Shown: positions 4,242-43,060 of the stretch, piece after piece
Layout: each line of letters opens with the position of its first letter
Position numbering within the stretch: the first letter of the stretch is position 1
Origin: Aurantimonas coralicida
GTDB lineage: Bacteria; Pseudomonadota; Alphaproteobacteria; Rhizobiales; Rhizobiaceae
DNA: 43,061 bases
NCBI GenBank assembly: GCA_011050685.1
Contig: DRFF01000005.1
Location: 1 to 43,061 of the forward strand
Direction: 5' to 3'
Position numbers and translations under genes: made by a program
The notes under the pieces: generated by a model
Told to the model about the DNA's origin: nothing
The model's database searches: none
What the model saw: the letters and a program-made list of their open reading frames with translations, nothing else

Positions 4242-7200
4242 TCCGCTGCCTCCGCTGACGCGACCGGCGTATCCAGCCAATCGACCTTTTCCATCTTGCG
4301 CACGATCACGAACTCGTCCCGGTTCGACCCGACGGTGCCGTAGTAGTTGAAGCCGTAGCTCAACTGGGCATAGCCGCCGATCATGTGGGTCGGCTTCAGA
4401 ACCGTCCGCGTGACCGAGTTATGGATACCGCCGCGCTTACCGGTGATCTGGCTGCCGGGCGTATTCACGATCTTTTCCTGCGCGTGGTACATGAACAGCG
4501 TGCCTTCCTTGATGCGTTGCGAAACCACCGCCCGCGCCGTCAGAACGCCGTTCGCGTTGAAGACCTCGACCCAGTCATTGTCGACTAGCCCGGCCTTCTT
4601 CGCATCCACCTCGGACAACCACACGACCGGACCGCCGCGGTTCAGCGTCAGCATCAGAAGATTGTCGGTATAGGTCGAATGGATGCCCCATTTCTGGTGC
4701 GGGGTGATGAAGTTCAAAACGACATGCTTGTCGTTGCCCGCCTGCCCTATCGCTGGCGCGATGGTCTTCAGATCCACCGGCGGACGCCAGGTCACGAAGG
4801 CTTCGCCGAAGGCGCGCATCCACTCGTGGTCCTGGTAAAGCTGCTGGCGGCCAGATAGCGTGCGCCAGGGGATCAGTTCGTGGACGTTGGTGTAGCCGGC
4901 GTTGTAGCAGACCTCCTCGCTCTCGATCCCGGACCATGTGGGCGACGAAATGATCTTGCGCGGCTGCGCGGCGATGTCGCGGAAGCGGATTTTCTCGTCC
5001 TGCTTGGGTCTTGCCAGATGGCTGTGTTCGCGCCCGGTGATCTTCTCCAGCGCCTCCCAGGCCTTGACCGCCACCTCGCCGTTGGTTTCCGGCGCCAGCA
5101 TCAGGATGACCTCGCAAGCATCGATCGCGGTGTCGATCCTGGCCATGCCCTTGGTCACGCCCTCATCGGTGACGCGGCCATTGAGATCCTGAAGGTGATG
5201 CACCTCGGTCTTGGTGTCCCAGGCGATACCCTTGCCACCATTGCCGACCTTTTCCATCAGCGGCCCGACCGCGGTGAAGCGCTTGTAGAGGTTGGGATAA
5301 TCCCGCTCCACCGCGATGTAGTTCGGCGCGGTCTTGCCGGGGATCAGCTCGCATTCGCCGGCCTTCCAGTCGGCCACGACCGATTGGGCCAGCTCGCCGG
5401 GGCTGTCGTGCTGCATCGGCAACGCGACCACGTCGGTTTCCACTCCCAACACCTCGGGCGCGATTTCGGAGAACTTCCTGGCCAGGGCCTTGAATATCTC
5501 CCAGTCCGATTTCGACTCGTAAGCCGGGTCCACAGCCGCCTGCAGCGGGTGGATGAACGGGTGCATGTCGGAGGTGTTGAGGTCGTCCTTTTCGTACCAA
5601 CTGGCCGTCGGCAGGACGATGTCGGAATAGACGCATGTGGTCGACATGCGGAAATCCAGCGTCACCAGGAGATCGAGTTTTCCTTCGGGGGCCTGATCGT
5701 GCCACTTGGCCTCGATCGGCTTGACCCTGCCTTCCTCGCCCAGATCCTTGCCGAGGACGCCGTGATCGGTGCCCAAGAGATGGCGCAGGAAATATTCATG
5801 TCCCTTGCCCGACGATCCCAAAAGGTTCGAGCGCCAGACAAACAGGTTGCGCGGCCAGTTTTCCGGTGCGTCCGGGTCTTCGCAGGACATTTCCAGCGCG
5901 CCGGATTTCAGCCCTTCGGCCACGTATTCCGGCGCCGTCTTGCCCGATGCCTTGGCGGCGCGGCCAACCTCCAGCGGGTTGGTCTTCAGCTGCGGCGCAG
6001 AGGGCAGCCAGCCCATGCGTTCGGCCTGGATGTTGTAGTCGATCAGGCTGCGCTCGGCCCAATTGCCCGCCGGCGCCGTCGGCGACAGGATCTCGCCCGC
6101 CGTGACGGTTTCGTAGCGCCACTGGTCGGTGTGCGCGTACCAGGCGGAGGTCGAGTTCATGTGCCGGGGTGGGCGTGCCCAGTCCAGCGCGAAGGCCAGC
6201 GCCGTCCAACCGGTCTGCGGGCGGAGCTTTTCCTGGCCCACATAGTGCGACCAGCCGCCACCCGACTGACCGACGCAACCACACATCACCAACATGTTGA
6301 TGATGCCGCGATAGGCCATGTCCATATGGTACCAGTGGTTCAGGCCAGCGCCCAGAATGACCATCGACTTGCCGCTGGTCTTTTCGGCATTGGTAGCGAA
6401 TTCACGCGCGACGGCTACGATCCGGTCGCGCTTGACCCCGGTGATCTTCTCCGCCCAGGCCGGCGTGAACGGCACATCGGCGTCGAAAGAAGTGGCGACA
6501 TGTTTGCCGCCCAGCCCACGGTCGAGGCTGTAATTGGCGCAGAACAGGTCGAACACCGTCGTCACCAGCGCCTCGCCATCCTTCAGCTTCAGGCGGCGGA
6601 CTGGAACGTTGCGGGTCAGGACCTCGGGGTGGTCGCATTTGGTGAAATGCTCGGTCGCCTCGCCGCCGAAATAGGGAAAATCGACACCGACCACATCGTC
6701 GCGATCCTCCTCCAGGACCAACGTCGTCTTCAGGTCGATCGCCTTCCCGCCCGCGTTCTCCTCAAGGTTCCAATGTCCGCTTTGCCCCCAGCGGAAGCCG
6801 ATCGAGCCATTGGGGACGACCACAGCGCCGGTGTTGCTGTCGATCCCGACCGTCTTCCAGTCGGGGTTGTTGGATTCGCCCAGCGCATCGGTGAAATCGG
6901 CGGCGCGCAGCATCCGGCCCGCAACGTAGCCTCCGTCCTTCTTGTCCAGCCGCACCAGCAGCGGGAAATCGGAATATTTGCGGGTGTAATCCTCGAAATA
7001 CGGCACCTGCCGGTCGAGGTGATATTCACGCAGGATGACGTGGCCAAACGCCATCGCCAGCGCGGCGTCGGTGCCCGCCTGCGGGTTCAGCCAGATGTCG
7101 CCAAACTTGGCGGCCTCGCTGTAATCCGGGCTGACGACGGCGGATTTGGTGCCCCGGTAGCGCGCCTCGGTATAGAAATGCGCGTCCGGCGTGCGGGTTT

Positions 7201-7975
7201 GCGGCACGTTCGATCCCCACAGGATCAGGAAGCCGGAATTGTACCAGTCGGCGCTTTCCGGCACGTCAGTCTGCTCACCCCAGGTCTGCGGGCTGGCGGG
7301 CGGCAGGTCGCAATACCAGTCGTAGAACGACATGCAGGTGCCACCCATCAGGCTGAGGTAGCGCGAGCCCGCCGCGTAGCTGACCATCGACATCGCGGGG
7401 ATCGGCGAGAAACCGAAGACGCGGTCGGGTCCGTAGGTCTTGGTGGTGTAGGCATTGGCCGCCGCGACGATCTCGGTGACCTCGTCCCAGCTGGCGCGGA
7501 CGAACCCGCCCTTGCCGCGGGTCTTGGTGTAGCTGGCCCGCTTGGCCGGGTCGGCTTGGATCGCCTTCCACGCCTCGATCGGGCTCATCGTGGCGCGCAA
7601 TTCGCGCCACAGCCGCATCAGGCGCCCCCGCACCAAGGGCGTCTTCACCCGATTGGCCGAATACAGATACCAGCTGTAGCTGGCCCCCCGCGCGCAGCCG
7701 CGCGGCTCGTGGTTGGGCATATCGGGCCGGGTCCGCGGATAATCGGTCTGCTGGGTCTCCCAAGTCACGATCCCGGACTTGACGTAGATCTTCCACGAAC
7801 AGGACCCGGTGCAGTTCACCCCGTGGGTGGACCGCACGATCTTGTCGTGGCGCCAGCGATCGCGGTAGACGTCCTCCCAATCCCGGCTCTCGATGGTGGT
7901 CTGGCCGTGACCATCGGCGAAGGTGTCCTGTCGCGTGGACTTGAGGAAATTCAGTCGGTCGAGAAGATGGCTCAT
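4238..7975 (-). CDS. narG: Respiratory nitrate reductase alpha subunit NarG (molybdenum catalytic subunit)
   Basis: The 1245-residue protein is full length for NarG. It reduces nitrate to nitrite at a bis-MGD molybdenum centre. The N-terminal FS0 cluster ligands are His51, Cys55, Cys59 and Cys94, the His-plus-three-Cys pattern that separates NarG from periplasmic Nap. The molybdenum-ligand region reads SFYDWYCDLPP near residues 216-226; Asp219 should match the ligand aspartate of E. coli NarG. There is no twin-arginine signal, which fits the cytoplasmic orientation. The start ATG (7973-7975) follows a good AGGAGAG ribosome site and lies 17 bases after the narK stop. A very long antisense open frame opposite this gene is a codon-bias artefact. 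Confidence 0.98.
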   Translation of the reverse strand: MSHLLDRLNFLKSTRQDTFADGHGQTTIESRDWEDVYRDRWRHDKIVRSTHGVNCTGSCSWKIYVKSGIVTWETQQTDYPRTRPDMPNHEPRGCARGASYSWYLYSANRVKTPLVRGRLMRLWRELRATMSPIEAWKAIQADPAKRASYTKTRGKGGFVRASWDEVTEIVAAANAYTTKTYGPDRVFGFSPIPAMSMVSYAAGSRYLSLMGGTCMSFYDWYCDLPPASPQTWGEQTDVPESADWYNSGFLILWGSNVPQTRTPDAHFYTEARYRGTKSAVVSPDYSEAAKFGDIWLNPQAGTDAALAMAFGHVILREYHLDRQVPYFEDYTRKYSDFPLLVRLDKKDGGYVAGRMLRAADFTDALGESNNPDWKTVGIDSNTGAVVVPNGSIGFRWGQSGHWNLEENAGGKAIDLKTTLVLEEDRDDVVGVDFPYFGGEATEHFTKCDHPEVLTRNVPVRRLKLKDGEALVTTVFDLFCANYSLDRGLGGKHVATSFDADVPFTPAWAEKITGVKRDRIVAVAREFATNAEKTSGKSMVILGAGLNHWYHMDMAYRGIINMLVMCGCVGQSGGGWSHYVGQEKLRPQTGWTALAFALDWARPPRHMNSTSAWYAHTDQWRYETVTAGEILSPTAPAGNWAERSLIDYNIQAERMGWLPSAPQLKTNPLEVGRAAKASGKTAPEYVAEGLKSGALEMSCEDPDAPENWPRNLFVWRSNLLGSSGKGHEYFLRHLLGTDHGVLGKDLGEEGRVKPIEAKWHDQAPEGKLDLLVTLDFRMSTTCVYSDIVLPTASWYEKDDLNTSDMHPFIHPLQAAVDPAYESKSDWEIFKALARKFSEIAPEVLGVETDVVALPMQHDSPGELAQSVVADWKAGECELIPGKTAPNYIAVERDYPNLYKRFTAVGPLMEKVGNGGKGIAWDTKTEVHHLQDLNGRVTDEGVTKGMARIDTAIDACEVILMLAPETNGEVAVKAWEALEKITGREHSHLARPKQDEKIRFRDIAAQPRKIISSPTWSGIESEEVCYNAGYTNVHELIPWRTLSGRQQLYQDHEWMRAFGEAFVTWRPPVDLKTIAPAIGQAGNDKHVVLNFITPHQKWGIHSTYTDNLLMLTLNRGGPVVWLSEVDAKKAGLVDNDWVEVFNANGVLTARAVVSQRIKEGTLFMYHAQEKIVNTPGSQITGKRGGIHNSVTRTVLKPTHMIGGYAQLSYGFNYYGTVGSNRDEFVIVRKMEKVDWLDTPVASAEAAE

Positions 7976-7992
7976 CTTGCTCTCCTTTCAGG

Positions 7993-10722
7993 TCAGACTG
8001 CGGAGATGGCGGGCGAGGAACGGCCGGCGCGCTCGGTTGCGGCCAGGAGGCCGCCCCGCCGGGTGTAGTAGAACCAGGTCAGCACGACGCAGATCACGTA
8101 GAAGCCGAGGAACCCCCAGAGCGCCGCCACCGGCCCGCCGGTCATGGCGATCGAGGTGCCGTAGGCTTTCGGGATGAAGAAGGCGCCATAGGCTGCGATG
8201 GCGCTGGTAAAGGCGATGATCGCCGCGCTTTCACGCTCCGCCTGCTTGCGCAGCGCGCCCCCGTCCAGCTCCGGCATCAGACGCGGGATTTCGCGCCCCA
8301 TGATCGCGGGGATCATCTGGAATGTGGAGGCGTTGCCGACCCCGGTCAGGAAGAACAGCGTCATGAACGAAGCGAAGAAGCCCCAGAACGCGCCCGGCTG
8401 TTCCTTGATGCCGAGGAAGAAGATCACCCCGAACACCGCCACGATCATTCCCAGGAACGTCCAGAAGGTGACCCGGCCGCCGCCGTATTTGTCGGAGATC
8501 CAGCCCGTGCCGGCGCGCGACAGCGCCCCGACCAGCGGCCCGAGGAACACGAACTGCAGCGCGTTCACGTCTGGGAACTGAAGCTTGGTGAGCAGCGGGA
8601 AACCAGCGGAATAGCCGATGAAGCTGCCGAAAGTGCCGGTGTAAAGCACGCACATGATCCAGTTGTGCTTGCGGCTGAAGATGATCGCCTGCTCCTTGAA
8701 GCTGGCCTTGGCGTCGGCGATGTCGTTCATCCCGACCCAGGCAGCGATGGTGGCCGCGATGATGAACGGCACCCAGACGAAGCCGGCGTTCTGCATCCAG
8801 AGCAGGCCGCCATCCGACATGGTCTGCGGCTGACCGCCCAACGCGCCGAAGACACCGGCGGTGATGACGAGCGGCACCAGGAACTGCATGACGGAGACGC
8901 CGAGATTGCCGAGGCCCGCGTTCAGCGCCAGCGCGTTGCCCTTTTCCGCCTTCGGGTAGAAGAAGGCGATATTAGCCATCGACGAGGCGAAGTTGCCGCC
9001 GCCGAAGCCGCACAGCAGCGCCAGAACCAGGAAGATCAGGTAAGGCGTATCGGGATTTTGCACCGCATAGCCGATGCCCATGGCCGGTAGCAGCAGCGAG
9101 GCGGTGGAAAGGGTCGTCCACAGCCTGCCGCCGAAGATCGGCACCATGAAGCTGTAGAAGATGCGCAAGGTCGCACCGGAAAGCCCCGGCAGCGCCGCCA
9201 GCCAGAACAGCTCGCCCGGCGTGAAGTCGAAGCCGATCGCCGGCAGACGCGCCACGACCACCGACCACACCATCCAGACCGAGAAGGCCAGAAGCAGTGC
9301 CGGGATCGAGATCCAGAGGTTCCGGCGCGCGATGCGGCGGCCTTTGTCCTCCCAGAAGCTCTTGTCCTCGGGGCTCCACTCTTCCAGCGTGTGCGCATCC
9401 TGCGAGGCGTCCGAGACCGGCATCCCCAGCATTTCGGGTAGTTGCGGCAAATGGTTCAGGACTGCGCCCTGCTCCGTCCGCTCCATCACGCGGATCGCCA
9501 TGTGCATCCAGAGCAGCGAAACGCCCACCAGCAGGAACAGCAGCGCAAAGGCCGAGGTATAGATGCCAGTCAAGTCCAGCGCTGCGCCGAATATGATCGG
9601 CAGGATGAACCCCCCAAGGCCGCCGATCATGCCCACCAGCCCGCCGACAGCGCCGACATGCTTGGGGTAATAGGCCGGGATGTGCTTGAATACCGCCGCC
9701 TTACCGAGGCTCATGAAGAAACCGAGCGCGAACAGGATTAAGACGAAAGGCCAGAAGTCCAGCTGGGTCGAAAAGGCGATCGGGCCGTCCTTGCCCTGGA
9801 TCACATAGTCTGTTGCCGGATAGGACAGCATGAACAGCAAGATGGTGGAAAACCCCAGGCTCCAGTACATCACCGACCGGGCGCCGAAACGGTCCGACAA
9901 CGCCCCGCCATAGGCCCGGAATAGCGATCCCGAAAGCCCGAAAGCCGCCACTGCCATGCCGGCCATGCGGATGTCGACGTCGTAGACATCCATCAGGTAA
10001 TGCGGCGTCCAGAGCGCGATGGCGACAAAGCCGCCGAACACGAAGAAGTAGTAGAGCGAGAAGCGCCAGACCTGCAGGTTCTTCAGGGGCGCGAACTGCT
10101 CGACCAGCGAGGGCGGCCGCGCGCCGCTTTTGCGGCGAGCCACGAGTGCCGGGTCATCCTTGGCGAACAGGAAGAACACGACCGCCATCAGCGCCAGGGC
10201 AGCGGCCCAGACTTGGGCAACCCCGTGCCAGCCATAGGCGACCATTACGAAGGGCGCGACGAACGTGGTGACCGCTGAGCCGACGTTGCCGGCCCCGAAG
10301 ATCCCCAGCGCGGTGCCCTGCCTGCCCGCGCCATACCAGCGCGAGACATAGGCGACGCCGATAATGAACGATCCGCCGGCCAGGCCAATGCCGAGCGCGG
10401 CGATCAGATACATCGGATAGCTTGACACCCAGGTCAGCATCCACGTCGCCGCGGCCGTCAACAGCATCTGCGCCGTGAACACGATACGGCCGCCGTATTT
10501 CTCGGTCCAGACACCAAGAATAAGCCGGGTAAGCGATCCAGTCAGAATGGGGGTGGCGACCAGCAAGCCGAACTCGAACTCGTTGAGCCCCAGCTCGGCC
10601 TTTATCTCGACGCCGATGATTGAAAAGATCGTCCAGACCGCGAAGCAGGCCGTGAAGGCGATCGTGCTCAGCCCCAGCGCTCGTGTGCGCTCGGCATCCG
10701 AGACGTGTGCCTGCTCCATCAT
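7993..10722 (-). CDS. narK: Fused nitrate/nitrite transporter NarK (two MFS domains in one chain)
   Basis: The 909-residue membrane protein holds two complete major facilitator units, about residues 10-430 and 455-900, joined by a charged linker around EEWSPEDKSFWEDKGRR. Each half shows about 12 hydrophobic segments and glycine-rich NarK/NasA-type signatures, for example GIGLAGGSFIIGVAYVSRWY in the first and LLCGFGGGNFASSMANIAFF in the second. In Paracoccus the equivalent NarK1-NarK2 fusion combines proton-linked nitrate uptake with nitrate/nitrite exchange, so one polypeptide can start and then sustain respiration. The ATG at 10720-10722 has GGAG 7 bases upstream; a second ATG follows directly. 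It is the first gene of the nar operon and lies behind an FNR-type box. Confidence 0.95.
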   Translation of the reverse strand: MMEQAHVSDAERTRALGLSTIAFTACFAVWTIFSIIGVEIKAELGLNEFEFGLLVATPILTGSLTRLILGVWTEKYGGRIVFTAQMLLTAAATWMLTWVSSYPMYLIAALGIGLAGGSFIIGVAYVSRWYGAGRQGTALGIFGAGNVGSAVTTFVAPFVMVAYGWHGVAQVWAAALALMAVVFFLFAKDDPALVARRKSGARPPSLVEQFAPLKNLQVWRFSLYYFFVFGGFVAIALWTPHYLMDVYDVDIRMAGMAVAAFGLSGSLFRAYGGALSDRFGARSVMYWSLGFSTILLFMLSYPATDYVIQGKDGPIAFSTQLDFWPFVLILFALGFFMSLGKAAVFKHIPAYYPKHVGAVGGLVGMIGGLGGFILPIIFGAALDLTGIYTSAFALLFLLVGVSLLWMHMAIRVMERTEQGAVLNHLPQLPEMLGMPVSDASQDAHTLEEWSPEDKSFWEDKGRRIARRNLWISIPALLLAFSVWMVWSVVVARLPAIGFDFTPGELFWLAALPGLSGATLRIFYSFMVPIFGGRLWTTLSTASLLLPAMGIGYAVQNPDTPYLIFLVLALLCGFGGGNFASSMANIAFFYPKAEKGNALALNAGLGNLGVSVMQFLVPLVITAGVFGALGGQPQTMSDGGLLWMQNAGFVWVPFIIAATIAAWVGMNDIADAKASFKEQAIIFSRKHNWIMCVLYTGTFGSFIGYSAGFPLLTKLQFPDVNALQFVFLGPLVGALSRAGTGWISDKYGGGRVTFWTFLGMIVAVFGVIFFLGIKEQPGAFWGFFASFMTLFFLTGVGNASTFQMIPAIMGREIPRLMPELDGGALRKQAERESAAIIAFTSAIAAYGAFFIPKAYGTSIAMTGGPVAALWGFLGFYVICVVLTWFYYTRRGGLLAATERAGRSSPAISAV

Positions 10723-30351: not shown

Positions 30352-31326
30352 TTAGGCTGCGGCCTCGCGGGCAAGGCGCGCCGCTTTAAGCCGGTCGAAA
30401 TCTTCGCCGGCATGATGCGACGAGCGGGTCAGCGGGCTAGACGCGACCACGAGGAAGCCTTTCGCCAGCGCCACGGTCTCAAAGGACGTGAACTCTTCCG
30501 GAGTCACAAAGCGCATCACCGCGTGGTGCTTCTTGGTCGGCTGCAGATATTGCCCGATGGTGAGGAAATCGACGTCGGCCGTCCTCAGATCGTCCATCAA
30601 TTGCAGCACTTCGTTCCGCTCCTCGCCGAGACCGACCATGATGCCGGATTTGGTGAACATCGTCGGATCGAGTTCCTTGACCCGCTGCAAGAGGCGGATC
30701 GAATGGAAGTAGCGGGCTCCAGGCCGAACCGTCAGATAGTTCGACGGCACCGTTTCCAGATTGTGGTTGAAGACGTCGGGCTTGGCGGCCACCACCGTTT
30801 CGAGCGCACCGGGTTTGCGCAGGAAATCCGGCGTCAGGATCTCGATCGTCGTTCCCGGCGCGATGGCGCGGATCGCGCGGATCGTCTTGACGAAGTGTTC
30901 CGCGCCGCCGTCGGGCAGATCGTCGCGGTCGACCGAGGTGATAACGACATGGGCCAGCCCCATTGCCGCCACGGCCCGCCCGACACTCTCCGGTTCGCTT
31001 TGGTCAAGTGCCTTCGGCAGGCCGGTGGCAACGTTGCAGAAGGCGCAGGCACGGGTGCAAATCCCGCCCATGATCATGAAGCTCGCGTGCTTCTTTTCCC
31101 AACAGCCGCCGATATTGGGACAGCCGGCTTCCTCGCAAACCGTCACCAGATTATTGGAACGGGTAATTTCGCGGGTTTCGTAATAGCCCTTGGACACCGG
31201 CGCCTTGACGCGAATCCAGTCCGGCTTCTTCAGACTGGCCGTCTGATCCGGACGATGGGCTTTTTCGGGATGCCGCGGCCGGGGAGTCTCCCCGGCCGGC
31301 AGGCGGTTATCGAGCACGGTGACCAT
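30352..31326 (-). CDS. lipA: Lipoyl synthase LipA
   Basis: The 324-residue radical-SAM enzyme inserts two sulfur atoms into protein-bound octanoyl groups to make lipoyl cofactor. The auxiliary cluster motif [16 protein letters not shown] is followed by the radical-SAM motif [10 protein letters not shown]. The C-terminal [10 protein letters not shown] supplies the serine ligand of the auxiliary cluster. It lies downstream of the pyruvate dehydrogenase genes, whose E1-beta and E2 need lipoylation. ATG 31324-31326; stop TAA. Confidence 0.97.
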
Positions 31327-31368
31327 AGGCTCAATCTAGTTCGGGCAGCCGCTGCGTGCAAACGGTTC

Positions 31369-31629
31369 CTAGGCCCCACGACCGCGAAACATGCGGAAAA
31401 TCGCGATCAACAAACTGGCTCCAATGAAACCAATGACCAGGTAGGCAAACCATCCGGTAAACCCGAGATTGAACAGCGCCAGAATCGCGTTGAGGACAAT
31501 CGCGCCCACAATTCCGAGGATAATGTTCATGACGAGACCCATGTCGCTCTTCATGAACTTCTCGGCAAGCCAACCGGCCAAGCCGCCGATAATGATCGCG
31601 ACGATCCAGCCAACACCATTTATTTCCAT
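31369..31629 (-). CDS. GlsB/YeaQ/YmgE-family small membrane protein
   Basis: The 86-residue protein has three hydrophobic segments (about 7-22, 31-53 and 58-78) and the family pattern GGLAGWLAEKFMKSDMGLVMNIILGIVGA. It ends in the basic tail FRMFRGRGA. The family is called transglycosylase-associated but its biochemical role is unknown; members are often stress-induced. AGGAGAG lies 5 bases before the ATG. It sits between lpd and lipA. I looked for an EcfG-type GGAAC...GTT promoter upstream and found only a poor match. Confidence 0.9.
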   Translation of the reverse strand: MEINGVGWIVAIIIGGLAGWLAEKFMKSDMGLVMNIILGIVGAIVLNAILALFNLGFTGWFAYLVIGFIGASLLIAIFRMFRGRGA

Positions 31630-31778
31630 GTCACTCTCCTATCAATGAGACAATTGAACTTAGAAATTGGGCCGCGAATCCTTCCGGCAAGATGCGATGA
31701 AAACAAAAATTTCGTTTGAAACTATCGCGCAGGAACGACGTTATAGGAAGTTTGCCAAGGAAAACATGATGATCCGTA

Positions 31779-33233
31779 TCACATGTGGATAACCCGGCCA
31801 TAAGCGTCGAGTACGCTTTCGTGCATCATTTCCGAAAGGGTCGGATGCGGGAAGACGGAGTGCATCAGCTCTTCCTCGGTGGTCTCGAGGCCCATGGCGA
31901 TGACGAAGCCCTGGATCAGCTCGGTCACCTCGGCCCCCACCATATGCGCGCCGAGCAATTCGCCGGTCTTGGCGTCGAACACGGTCTTCACCAATCCCTC
32001 CGGTTCGCCCAGCGCGATCGCCTTGCCATTGCCCCGGAAGGTGAAACGACCGACCTTAACCTCCCTGCCTGCGTCCTTGGCCTTTGCTTCCGTGAGGCCC
32101 ACCGAGGCGACCTGCGGCTGGCAATAGGTGCAGCCGGGGATCTGCGTCGTCTTCATGGGGTGGACATCCATTCCCTTGATCTTCTCGACGCAGATCGTCC
32201 CCTCATGCTCGGCCTTGTGGGCCAGCATCGGCGGTCCGGCCACATCGCCAATGGCATAGATGCCCTCGACATTGGTCCGGCCAAAGCCGTCGATCTTGAC
32301 CACGCCCCGCTCGATCGCCACGCCGGCCTCCTCAAGCCCAAGGCCTTCGATGTTGCACTGGACGCCGACGGCCGAAATCAGCCGCTCGGCCTTCAGAGTC
32401 TCGGTCTTGCCTCCCTTGGCTTCGACGGTCACCTCGACACCCTGCCCGGATTTCGTCACCTTCGAGACCTTGGCGTCGGTGAGGATCTTGAGGCCCTGCT
32501 TCTCCAGCTGCTTGCGGGCGACGCCCGCGATCTCGCCATCCTCGACCGGCATGATCTGCGGCAGCAGTTCGACGACCGTCACCTCGGCGCCCATCGTGCG
32601 GTAGAAGGAGGCGAATTCGATGCCGATGGCGCCCGAGCCCATGACGATGAGCGACTTGGGCATCGACGCCGGCTTCATCGCCTCGAAATAGGTCCAGATG
32701 CGATCGCCGTCCGGCTCGATGCCCGGCAGAACGCGCGGTCGAGCGCCGGTGGCGACGATCACATGTTTGGCCTTGTAGGTCCCCTCCCCGAGCACGCCCT
32801 TGGGCACCGGATTCTGCGGCTCCACTGCCGGCTTCTTCATCTTGCCGACCGACACCTCGACAGGCGCGTCCTTCCCCACCTTGGTAATCTTCGCCTCGCC
32901 CCAGATGACGTCGATCTTGTTCTTCTTCATCAGAAAGCCGACACCGCCACTCAGCTGCGCCGAGACCCCGCGCGAGCGCTTGACCACGGCGGCGATATCG
33001 AAACCGGGCTTGGCGATCGTCAGTCCGTAGTCCTTGGCGTTCTCGGCATAGTGGAAGATCTCCGCCGAGCGCAGGAGCGCCTTGGTCGGGATGCAGCCCC
33101 AGTTGAGACAGATGCCGCCGAGGTGTTCGCGCTCCACGACGGCGGTCTTGAACCCCAGTTGCGCCGCCCGAATCGCCGCGACATAGCCGCCAGGGCCGCC
33201 GCCGATGATCAGGATATCGTAGGCATCAGCCAT
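31779..33233 (-). CDS. lpdA: Dihydrolipoyl dehydrogenase (E3)
   Basis: The 484-residue flavoprotein reoxidises dihydrolipoyl groups with NAD+. Features are the FAD-binding GGGPGGYVAA at the N-terminus, the redox-active disulfide GGICLNWGCIPTK with Cys42 and Cys47, an NAD-binding GSGAIGIEFASF, FAD-binding YAIGDVAG, and the C-terminal catalytic HPTLSEMMHE. There is no lipoyl domain at its N-terminus. A proline/lysine-rich insertion (KMKKPAVEPQNPVPKG) is typical of this alphaproteobacterial subgroup. Its start overlaps the SGNH hydrolase gene by 8 bases, placing it within the pdh operon and making it the likely pyruvate dehydrogenase E3. Confidence 0.97.
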   Translation of the reverse strand: MADAYDILIIGGGPGGYVAAIRAAQLGFKTAVVEREHLGGICLNWGCIPTKALLRSAEIFHYAENAKDYGLTIAKPGFDIAAVVKRSRGVSAQLSGGVGFLMKKNKIDVIWGEAKITKVGKDAPVEVSVGKMKKPAVEPQNPVPKGVLGEGTYKAKHVIVATGARPRVLPGIEPDGDRIWTYFEAMKPASMPKSLIVMGSGAIGIEFASFYRTMGAEVTVVELLPQIMPVEDGEIAGVARKQLEKQGLKILTDAKVSKVTKSGQGVEVTVEAKGGKTETLKAERLISAVGVQCNIEGLGLEEAGVAIERGVVKIDGFGRTNVEGIYAIGDVAGPPMLAHKAEHEGTICVEKIKGMDVHPMKTTQIPGCTYCQPQVASVGLTEAKAKDAGREVKVGRFTFRGNGKAIALGEPEGLVKTVFDAKTGELLGAHMVGAEVTELIQGFVIAMGLETTEEELMHSVFPHPTLSEMMHESVLDAYGRVIHM

Positions 33234-39641: not shown

Positions 39642-40556
39642 ATGGACCGAACGGATCATGAGAGCGTCGAGGGCAAGCAGGGGGCATCCGACAAGCCCCG
39701 GCAAGCGAAAGACGTGACCGAACAACGGCTCGAGGACGAAGGCTCGCCGCTGAGCCACAGCGAGCGGCATCAAATCGAGGACCGGCTGAAATTGCGGCCG
39801 GTCGCCGTCTACGAGTTGGTTCGCCAGGAAGGCGAAGACGAACTGTCGCGCCCGACCAGCAGCCTTTGGTGGTCGGGCCTCGCGGCGGGGCTGTCGATCG
39901 GCTTTTCGGTCTTTGCGCAAGCGGCGATCCGCGCCAACCTGCCCGATACGGACTGGCGCCCGCTGATCGATTCCTGGGGCTACGCGGTCGGCTTCCTGAT
40001 CGTCATTCTCGGACGTCAGCAACTGTTCACCGAAATCACACTGACGGCGACGCTGCCGGTCCTGGCCCGGCCGAGCTGGCGCGGCCACCTCGCGATCGCC
40101 CGCCTCTGGCTCATCGTCTTTGCCGCCAATATGGTGGGAACGACCATCTTTGGCGCGGCGATCGCCTTTGATGTCCTTAATTTGCCCGACATCGCCAAGG
40201 CCGCGATCGAAATTTCGCAGGAAGCCATGGAACCGGGTTTCGGTCCTACACTTCTGCGCGGAATTGCCGCAGGCTGGCTGATGGCTACGGTGGTCTGGCT
40301 ATTGCCGTCGGCGGATAAATCCAGCTTCCTGGTGATCGCGCTCCTGACCTATCTCATCGCCCTGTTCCACCTGTCCCATGTGGTGGCGGGATCGGTGGAA
40401 GCGATGGCCCTGGTCTTTTCCGGTCACCTGTCGTTCGTCGATGCGGTCACCGGCTTCTATGTCCCGGCCCTCATCGGCAACATCCTGGGCGGCGCCACAC
40501 TGTTCGCGCTGATCAGCTATGGTCAGGTCGCCGAGGAGCTGGACGAGCGCAGCTAA
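39642..40556 (+). CDS. Formate/nitrite transporter (FNT) family channel, YfdC-like
   Basis: The 304-residue protein starts at the ATG at 39642 (MDRTDHESVEG). The first about 75 residues are hydrophilic, then come about six membrane segments (about 77-100, 110-130, 150-175, 200-222, 232-255 and 275-297) of the aquaporin-like FNT fold. LFHLSHVVAGSVEAM holds the likely central histidine, and FYVPALIGNILGGATLFALI is the last helix. The substrate may be nitrite, formate or another small anion; the YfdC subgroup is uncharacterised. A long open frame to the left is not coding. It is on the opposite strand to its conserved neighbours, next to an acquired-looking gene. Confidence 0.85.
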   Translation: MDRTDHESVEGKQGASDKPRQAKDVTEQRLEDEGSPLSHSERHQIEDRLKLRPVAVYELVRQEGEDELSRPTSSLWWSGLAAGLSIGFSVFAQAAIRANLPDTDWRPLIDSWGYAVGFLIVILGRQQLFTEITLTATLPVLARPSWRGHLAIARLWLIVFAANMVGTTIFGAAIAFDVLNLPDIAKAAIEISQEAMEPGFGPTLLRGIAAGWLMATVVWLLPSADKSSFLVIALLTYLIALFHLSHVVAGSVEAMALVFSGHLSFVDAVTGFYVPALIGNILGGATLFALISYGQVAEELDERS

Positions 40557-40576
40557 GTGACCCGGGGGATTTGACC

Positions 40577-41707
40577 ATGTCCAACCACTTTACTGCTCAG
40601 CCGCCTCTCTTGGGACTTACGGAAGATGAGGCGGTCGATGCCATGGTCGCGTGGTTCAGAGAAAACTTTGAGGACCCCGCACAGAACACTCCGCATAATT
40701 CTCAAGAAGGAGGCTACCAATACATTTGGGGCGGCCCGTACGATGCTCGAGACCAGCTGTCTGATTTCTCGCCTCAGATCATCTCGGAGTTTGGTGACGA
40801 AGCGGAGGTGCGTCTAATAGACAGGGCCGTCGACGGGGTTGAATCAGAGGGGCTGTCTGATTGGGCGCCCAATCTTGGTCGAGTAGACCGCGATCACGAC
40901 AACGACGGCTTCGTTCTTGGTACAGCTGAGGGGGCAATGATCGTCACAGAGAAGGGGGAGATGATCGCTGCATCTCCCGGAAAACAGGTCGTATATGAGG
41001 CTCCGAGGCCAAAATTTGTTGGCGTAGACGCCAAGGCTGCCGTAACGGAAATCGTCGAGTGGTTTGGAACGAAATTCGCGCCGGCAACCGCTGACAATAG
41101 CGACCAATATCGTGGATGGCCTGTCTACGCATCGGAACTCTCTACGATGGAAGCGCTATCCTCCTTGAATGATGCTCTGACGACGGAGTTTGGCCCTATT
41201 AACGGGATGATGATTGCCGGCGATGCCGCTGACAAGATCGAACGGCAGATGAATGGCGTCGATCGCTGGGTCAGAACCACTATATTGACACCTCCGATTG
41301 CAGATAGGCCTGCGAAAGCGCCGAACACAGAGAAACAAGCTCGTGAGAGGGCCGCGACAGCGCTGGATGCTCTCTCTGCCGCTATGGATGAACTGCCTCG
41401 TCCATCGCCATCCATCGGGCACAACAATCCGCCGGAGCCCATTAACTTTGGCCCTTTTAGCTGGATGGACTGGCACGAACTCGAAACAGCAGTCGCGTCT
41501 GCAAAATCACAGACCGAGAGCCCTTCCCCCGAGCCCGTGGACATTCATCGCTCGGCCGAAACGATCGAAGCGAAGGCTAGAAAAATTCGTGATTGGGCAG
41601 CAGAAGGCTTCGTGAAAGGATTCTCGCAGGCCGCCGGGGTGACGTTCTACGGGCTTATGATTGCGGCTGCTTCAGCGTTAGCTTTATGGGCGGGGTTTCT
41701 CCCTTAG
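40577..41707 (+). CDS. Membrane-anchored protein of unknown function with internal duplication
   Basis: I do not recognise this 376-residue protein. It starts at the ATG at 40577 after GGGGGA. Two similar segments occupy about 19-90 and 155-232: AWFRENF (25-31) matches EWFGTKF (161-167); ISEFG matches TTEFG; LIDRAVDGVE matches KIERQMNGVD. The first also has the striking YIWGGPYDAR (49-58), and the second WPVYASEL. An acidic stretch (DRDHDNDGF) follows the first repeat. SIGHNNPPEPI (279-289) resembles a motif I recall from accessory proteins of alphaproteobacteria. A single hydrophobic segment (about 354-374) ends the chain. G+C is lower than its neighbours: 30 of 60 in 41281-41340 against 39 of 60 in 42121-42180 within eno. 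Recent transfer is likely; function is unknown. Confidence 0.85.
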   Translation: MSNHFTAQPPLLGLTEDEAVDAMVAWFRENFEDPAQNTPHNSQEGGYQYIWGGPYDARDQLSDFSPQIISEFGDEAEVRLIDRAVDGVESEGLSDWAPNLGRVDRDHDNDGFVLGTAEGAMIVTEKGEMIAASPGKQVVYEAPRPKFVGVDAKAAVTEIVEWFGTKFAPATADNSDQYRGWPVYASELSTMEALSSLNDALTTEFGPINGMMIAGDAADKIERQMNGVDRWVRTTILTPPIADRPAKAPNTEKQARERAATALDALSAAMDELPRPSPSIGHNNPPEPINFGPFSWMDWHELETAVASAKSQTESPSPEPVDIHRSAETIEAKARKIRDWAAEGFVKGFSQAAGVTFYGLMIAAASALALWAGFLP

Positions 41708-41737
41708 CCTAAGATGCAGGCGAATGCGGCAGGCGGT

Positions 41738-43060
<1,323 letters not shown>

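Follow-up and report, generated by a model that had tools for sequence, protein, structure and literature searches.

A probable stand-alone conflict gene inserted between an FNT-type channel gene and the enolase gene in Aurantimonas coralicida

In the window (the whole 43,061-nucleotide stretch of A. coralicida DNA analysed here), a gene for a 376-aa protein is flanked upstream, on the same strand, by a gene for an FNT-type channel (PF01226, E=8e-46) and at the other end by an enolase gene (eno; PF00113, E=2.6e-133) on the opposite strand; a DivIC/FtsB-type gene (PF04977, E=7.7e-12) follows beyond FNT (Table 1). These Pfam matches agree with the setting given in the original prediction, made from the sequence alone, which had named FNT, eno and ftsB around the gene. 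The start of the gene is only 20 bases past the FNT stop, so read-through transcription from FNT would be possible. The encoded protein is organised as an N-terminal domain (NTD1), a segment resembling a decayed NTD, a helix, the sequence IGHNNPPE, further helices and a hydrophobic tail; the YIWGGPYDAR block and SIGHNNPPEP motif picked out in the prediction are both present in the translation.

Table 1 Features of the gene between FNT and eno and of its predicted product
Feature	Coordinates	Strand	Basis or remark
Gene, most likely inserted; ORF of 376 aa	40577..41707	+	ORF call and translation
GGGGGA, possible ribosome-binding site	40564..40569	+	7 bases upstream of ATG; read directly
Approximate insert	40557..41720	.	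Replaces the 72-90 bp hairpin spacer of four relatives
Segment 1 (aa 12-98), divergent HEPN/RES-NTD1 domain, PF18870-like	40610..40870	+	Profile matches and isolated fold
Segment 2 (aa 148-238), possible decayed second NTD-like copy	41018..41290	+	8.4-bit profile score
Predicted helix (aa 252-272) ahead of the motif	41330..41392	+	AlphaFold model
IGHNNPPE motif (aa 280-287)	41414..41437	+	Translation and alignment
Predicted helices (aa 296-314 and 320-342)	41462..41602	+	AlphaFold model
C-terminal hydrophobic helix (aa 357-375), putative membrane span	41645..41701	+	Kyte-Doolittle 1.80, octanol-scale sum 7.25, AlphaFold

The G+C content of the ORF is 55.5% and its GC3 57%, compared with a GC3 of 76-86% in four neighbours (FNT, 76%; eno, 86%; 77% and 82% in two genes that we take to be of pdh type), bearing out the lower G+C originally reported. 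The codons AGA, ATA and AAT, said there to be frequent, make up 3, 2 and 6 of the 377 codons (2, 1 and 2 of 375 in FNT; 0, 1 and 7 of 427 in eno): the shift in composition is general, at third positions, and does not lie in those three codons. A second dip in G+C of the same depth (0.557) is found at 31001-32000, spanning the gap between genes presumed to encode lipoyl synthase and dihydrolipoyl dehydrogenase, and the dip at the gene is thus not unique in the window.

Among the eight genomes of the genus, the window's own counted, enolase was detected in all and FNT in seven. Four of the seven others (G002, G005, G006 and G007) have FNT and eno on one contig with no gene between them and a gap of 72-90 bp (counted from the FNT protein match), compared with 1.18 kb in the window. 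A GC-rich hairpin, seen by eye, lies in these spacers between the convergent genes, and the window has the gene in its place. In BLAST comparisons of the window with the four relatives the left match ends at 40547-40566 and the right match resumes at 41721-41726; no flanking direct or terminal inverted repeat was evident in 40400-41900. The eno side could be a place where insertions recur, as FNT was matched elsewhere than beside eno in G003 and G004 and no FNT turned up in G001. When 60 relatives' genomes were searched for the protein, two gave a match (the window's own genome and G014), and none of the seven other same-genus genomes did; the gene is thus neither a fixture of this locus in close relatives nor, at a GC3 of 57%, of normal composition. 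Absence from the seven other genomes of the genus, the four gene-free sites and the composition support the foreign origin guessed in the original prediction, and this real gene was most likely inserted, as a single foreign gene; gene loss in the relatives, rather than gain here, may be the alternative.

Segment 1 has the pattern WF...FEDP...GGYQYIWGGPYDA...F...WAP, and in an alignment of 11 such segments (A1) W15, F16, P23, Y36, G41, G42, P43, F61 and W85 are invariant. Pfam family PF18870 (HEPN/RES-NTD1) was matched by nine of the 11 A1 domains (best E=1.3e-7). Segment 1 of the window alone matched it at E=0.0019 (19.0 bits; 15.5 bits for the whole protein), below the curated Pfam cut-off of 27.4 bits, which is counted against our preferred reading of the protein; six relatives with a PF18870 match likewise fall short of this cut-off. 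Against the A1 profile, to which the window row contributes, segment 1 gave E=1.4e-32, and it scored 97.3 bits against a profile built without the window. The isolated domain was modelled by AlphaFold with a pLDDT of 87.8, the full model being less even here (one block at 59). Foldseek, run on PDB with the isolated domain and on both PDB and BFVD with the full model, returned nothing at E<=0.001, and comparison of sequence profiles with solved structures gave nothing convincing. The PHROG family phrog_17908, which has no assigned function, was matched at E=2.4e-15 over aa 17-119, a likeness confined to the N-terminal part. Since a single-sequence search with the window protein returned 31 genome-contig and five viral-contig pattern stretches and no confirmed relative, an NTD profile was needed to collect relatives; PF18870 itself found no match in 20 relatives, the window's own genome included. 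On sequence homology drawn through intermediates, segment 1 is assigned as a divergent HEPN/RES-NTD1 domain.

The original prediction had described two diverged copies of one segment, and here the two halves of the claim fared differently. The domain is clear in segment 1, whereas a decayed second copy in segment 2 is possible but doubtful: against the window-free segment-1 profile segment 2 scored 8.4 bits, as two correctly ordered pieces, and none of 5000 shuffles reached this score (best, 7.2). Against a profile of three other second copies it scored 0.7 bits, equalled by 337 shuffles; hhalign of segment 2 alone gave 7%, and the AlphaFold block pLDDT over it is 42-61, leaving two equal copies unsupported. 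An hhalign value of 98%, obtained by pooling segment 2 with other second copies, was rejected because the other rows drive the score. Elsewhere a second copy is clear in two Thalassospira proteins (39.1 and 42.6 bits) and weak in an Acidiphilium protein (9.9 bits); the protein at locus L327 has only a weak NTD-like stretch (9.0 bits).

From about aa 252 onwards the protein carries a separable module, defined here as the GHN-tail module, IG(H)NxPPE plus a helical, Gly/Ala-rich tail. In an alignment of 31 such modules (A2) the N and both P residues are invariant and G and H are present in at least 90%; when genomes were searched with the A2 profile, itself built with the window row, the window was found at E=1.1e-27. 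The AlphaFold block pLDDT is 81-98 over the C-terminal helices and 55 for aa 281-290, which contain the motif. An octanol-favourable 19-mer occurs in the last 75 residues of 33/39 GHN proteins vs 7/55 HEPN proteins, and the median Ala+Gly content there is 25% vs 12% (GHN rows without truncated or duplicate ones, HEPN rows with duplicates kept). A Kyte-Doolittle value of 1.6 is reached in the tail of ten of the 39 GHN proteins, that of the window among them (1.80). Hydrophobicity is graded across the family, and insertion into the membrane is not evident throughout the GHN class; from the sequences, membrane association appears plausible for the class and a good prospect for the window protein, in which the one C-terminal span of the original prediction corresponds to a single strongly hydrophobic helix, a putative membrane span.

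Profile searches with the NTD gave 57 loci in named genomes and 46 on viral contigs, and five of 385 genomes of the class were matched, the window's included. Among 121 NTD ORFs, redundant rows included, 57 have a HEPN C-terminus (with Rx4H in 56), 44 a GHN tail and 11 a long tail, the remainder being short or truncated (8) or other (1). The loci in named genomes comprise 18 with GHN and 10 with long tails (all alphaproteobacterial), 27 with HEPN, one other and one short. With the class of each locus taken from its record title and that of each genus from general knowledge, a GHN or longer tail is present in 28 of the 30 alphaproteobacterial loci and a HEPN-type RNase domain in 26 of the 27 others. 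One HEPN locus (L039) is titled alphaproteobacterial and the titles of four more (L065, L067, L071 and L072) give no class; the other exceptions are from Novosphingobium (L041, other) and Leclercia (L069, short). In Duganella guangzhouensis (L070, 5569-7906) two NTD-HEPN genes form a tandem pair.

A tree of 98 distinct NTDs was built by a quick method from 86 columns, with 48 of its 95 inner branches left unresolved. On it the HEPN label requires 5 changes vs 32.9 when shuffled, and a set of 38 GHN, six long-tail and one HEPN rows has an SH-aLRT support of 96. Three GHN rows (L017, L073 and L118) fall outside the main GHN set, which we count as contrary evidence. Two Bradyrhizobium loci (L026 and L030) are sisters on the tree (98) and differ in their C-termini. 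The first of these, from B. canariense (5923-8025), encodes the NTD, a long hydrophobic tail and a C-terminal RNase E/G-like stretch (PF10150, E=1.3e-12; weak S1 match).

Exchange was also seen from the side of the tail. At E<=0.001 the GHN-tail profile had matches in 11 of the 385 genomes of the class, of which six lay below 1e-7, and five loci carry the tail without a significant NTD1 (L253, L325, L326, L135 and L327). The N-termini of the first four are not matched to one another by BLAST below E=1 and none scores above zero bits for NTD1, L327 has only the weak NTD-like stretch mentioned above, and none of the five has a Pfam match above cut-off. At L326 (1393-2205), where the end of the tail was incompletely read, an N-terminus matching the PADLOC candidate PDC-S36 (1.2e-16) is fused to the GHN tail. 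Swapping of both NTD and tail suggests a stand-alone conflict protein that would have a sensor in front and a membrane-acting effector behind.

Plasmid records matching the window protein number 27 at E<=1, the best 20 all at 7e-5 or better. Among the matches listed, these cover approximately aa 13-110, extending to 171 in five Phaeobacter rows, and two of the 20 are annotated as 'HEPN domain-containing' or 'HEPN-associated N-terminal domain'. Only two of 50,697 named phage records were matched, which counts against a conflict role and lowers our confidence in it. On seven of nine annotated plasmid stretches the homologue has candidate defence or related genes close by: it lies 23 bp behind an ATP-binding gene that itself follows a type ISP restriction-modification (R-M) gene (L004); near genes for a cytosine methyltransferase, Vsr and a HEPN-like nuclease (L005); behind DUF3800 with another HEPN gene close (L007); and near an N-6 methylase (L008), a restriction endonuclease (L009), relB (L010) or an Abi gene (L012). 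The remaining two (L006 and L011) have no R-M, Abi, toxin-antitoxin or nuclease gene. At L012, a Sphingobium plasmid, the NTD and tail module are in different reading frames (4881-5698), so this gene looks broken. Ten neighbours of genome loci (nine upstream ORFs and one downstream, picked as the longest frame at 10 of 15 loci and not all necessarily genes) gave Pfam matches to PIN-type DUF4411, T5orf172, NYN, MmeI and a dehydrogenase, one each, and the other five had none. These are raw counts without a plasmid baseline, and the presence of defence genes beside homologues is suggestive only. In the window neither neighbour, FNT or eno, is a defence gene, a further point against the preferred reading.

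The homologues on the 27 plasmid records and at the 46 viral-contig loci could also be expected of a maintenance or addiction toxin of a plasmid or prophage, checked by its own NTD or by a diffusible partner and now stranded on the chromosome. In PMC3710099 the HEPN and RES domains paired with this NTD are presented as toxins, in keeping with this explanation. Against it, the window shows no partner gene, FNT and eno being the neighbours, the neighbouring ORFs of ten homologous loci differ with no constant antitoxin seen, and no partner recurs when 11 upstream ORFs read by eye are added to those scanned; we consider such a toxin unlikely.

The motif was also followed outside this family. The pattern ATHGGNCAYAAYNNNCCNCCNGAR matches 117 viral stretches and a single permuted pattern 13, raw counts and not per-base rates relative to cells. 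Stop-to-stop frames of at least 100 residues contain 103 of the 117, and blastp with the motif masked placed these frames in 20 clusters. Eleven of these have at least two members, the two largest 30 each; the tail module itself accounts for one three-member cluster and one singleton, and some of the singletons may be due to chance. For the permuted control, seven of 13 stretches lie in such frames and form five clusters, one with more than one member. The 117 stretches use 83 DNA spellings (74 without the free codon), a diversity that fits selection on the peptide. The original prediction had spotted SIGHNNPPEP in the window protein and missed this recurrence in viral proteins. At the motif loci (L121-L237) are what we take, partly from the look of the sequences, to be recombination-associated N-termini, NifU-like tails and scaffold-, helicase- and integrase-like proteins. 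One scaffold-like homologue has no motif in its first 200 residues, and the NifU-like family matched 11 phage records, none naming an alphaproteobacterial host.

A family with the motif near the N-terminus was found in 13 named-phage records (7 Rhizobium, 2 Sinorhizobium, 2 Azospirillum, 1 Ruegeria and 1 Microcystis phage), its members gathered by similarity and not by motif; a recombination gene lies beside the member in two records. Among the eight records read, strict IGHNxPPE is present in none, GHNxPP in four and only IGxN in four, so the signature, if real, would be looser than the octapeptide. In genomes, the strict motif occurs in three of 289 of the class (the window, one family member and one other) and two of 299 of the phylum (one being the window). 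A restriction to Alphaproteobacteria is indicated only tentatively. The idea that it marks host housekeeping proteins, tested with loose GHNxPP in 60 relatives, was rejected: 44 match, with 90 places vs 53 for the reversed pattern, and eight of 30 places read are one presumably helicase-like C-terminus with R or K, not E, after the motif. Literature searches did not find IGHNNPPE or spellings of GHNxPP, nor anything on PDC-S36, and a word search found nothing on the membrane effectors or short linear motifs in question.

As a tentative proposal, the mobile elements of Alphaproteobacteria might share IGHNxPPE (loosely IGxNxPP) as a so far undescribed short linear motif that docks to one common host factor. 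Phages, prophage-like contigs and defence-type proteins would each have acquired the peptide, at termini or linkers of unrelated proteins, and the window protein would be a membrane-tailed conflict protein sharing or contesting the docking site of invading phages. The missing strict motif in the eight named-phage homologues and the five clusters from the permuted control weaken this proposal. The 20 BLAST-unconnected viral clusters, two of them the tail module itself, would also accommodate a non-toxic, membrane-tethered adaptor whose NTD would recognise a nucleic-acid factor of phage or host, with IGHNxPPE docking to a host protein used by other phage proteins as well. This is improbable: the strict motif is missing from the same eight homologues, the docking partner is purely hypothetical, and HEPN RNases on the same NTD elsewhere are left unexplained.

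The domain of segment 1 was named HEPN/RES-NTD1 by Anantharaman et al. 2013 (PMC3710099), and the window protein shares with proteins of that type the homologous ~90-aa N-terminal domain, the mobile-element setting and the modular C-terminus. The table there gives as C-termini HEPN MAE_28990, RES, an ABC ATPase and two unnamed novel domains; the IG(H)NxPPE hydrophobic tail is set apart from the named ones and could correspond to one of the two unnamed domains. Unlike those proteins, the window protein has neither HEPN nor RES and has a doubtful second copy: no R[NDH]xxxH of a HEPN RNase (MAE_28990/MAE_18760 type) follows the NTD, and Pfam RES gave no match at E<=10. PADLOC 2.0.0 (5027 models) likewise gave no family at E<=10, PDC-S36 included, which is counted against a defence role, although the PDC-S36 N-terminus at L326 sits on the same C-terminal module. 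A type II toxin-antitoxin system is not indicated, FNT and enolase being the neighbours and no antitoxin adjacent.

Abortive-infection membrane-effector proteins carry a sensor in front and a membrane-acting tail behind. The window protein resembles them in layout, by analogy, and differs in that no sequence or structure similarity to them was found. Taken together, the protein is probably a horizontally acquired single-gene conflict protein of anti-phage or abortive-infection type. Such a role is indirectly supported by the other fusions of the two modules, the NTD with HEPN and, according to PMC3710099, RES, and the tail with the PDC-S36 N-terminus. The tail-anchored sensor, or stand-alone defence or stress protein, originally offered is accordingly upheld in part, through the NTD homology, the PDC-S36 fusion and the putative tail. 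In a working model of this conflict protein, the NTD would recognise, or be relieved by, an infection-related trigger and free the C-terminal Gly/Ala-rich helical tail, which would enter or crowd the inner membrane and stop growth; the tail would substitute for the HEPN RNase of most relatives outside Alphaproteobacteria, and the motif might dock to a partner. That the gene is instead a foreign one decaying without present function is a poor prospect, since, for all that segment 2 looks decayed and poorly folded and that only one genome in the eight of the genus has the gene, its reading frame is unbroken and residues conserved in other NTD and tail rows are present.

If the conflict reading is true, a membrane-directed effector class would be added to a sensor domain known from RNase toxins, with the effector split by lineage, an RNase outside Alphaproteobacteria and a hydrophobic tail within. 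It would also offer a route to stand-alone conflict genes that go unscored by PADLOC, the one defence catalogue searched. Should the motif prove to serve in docking, many unrelated phage proteins would use a single host factor.
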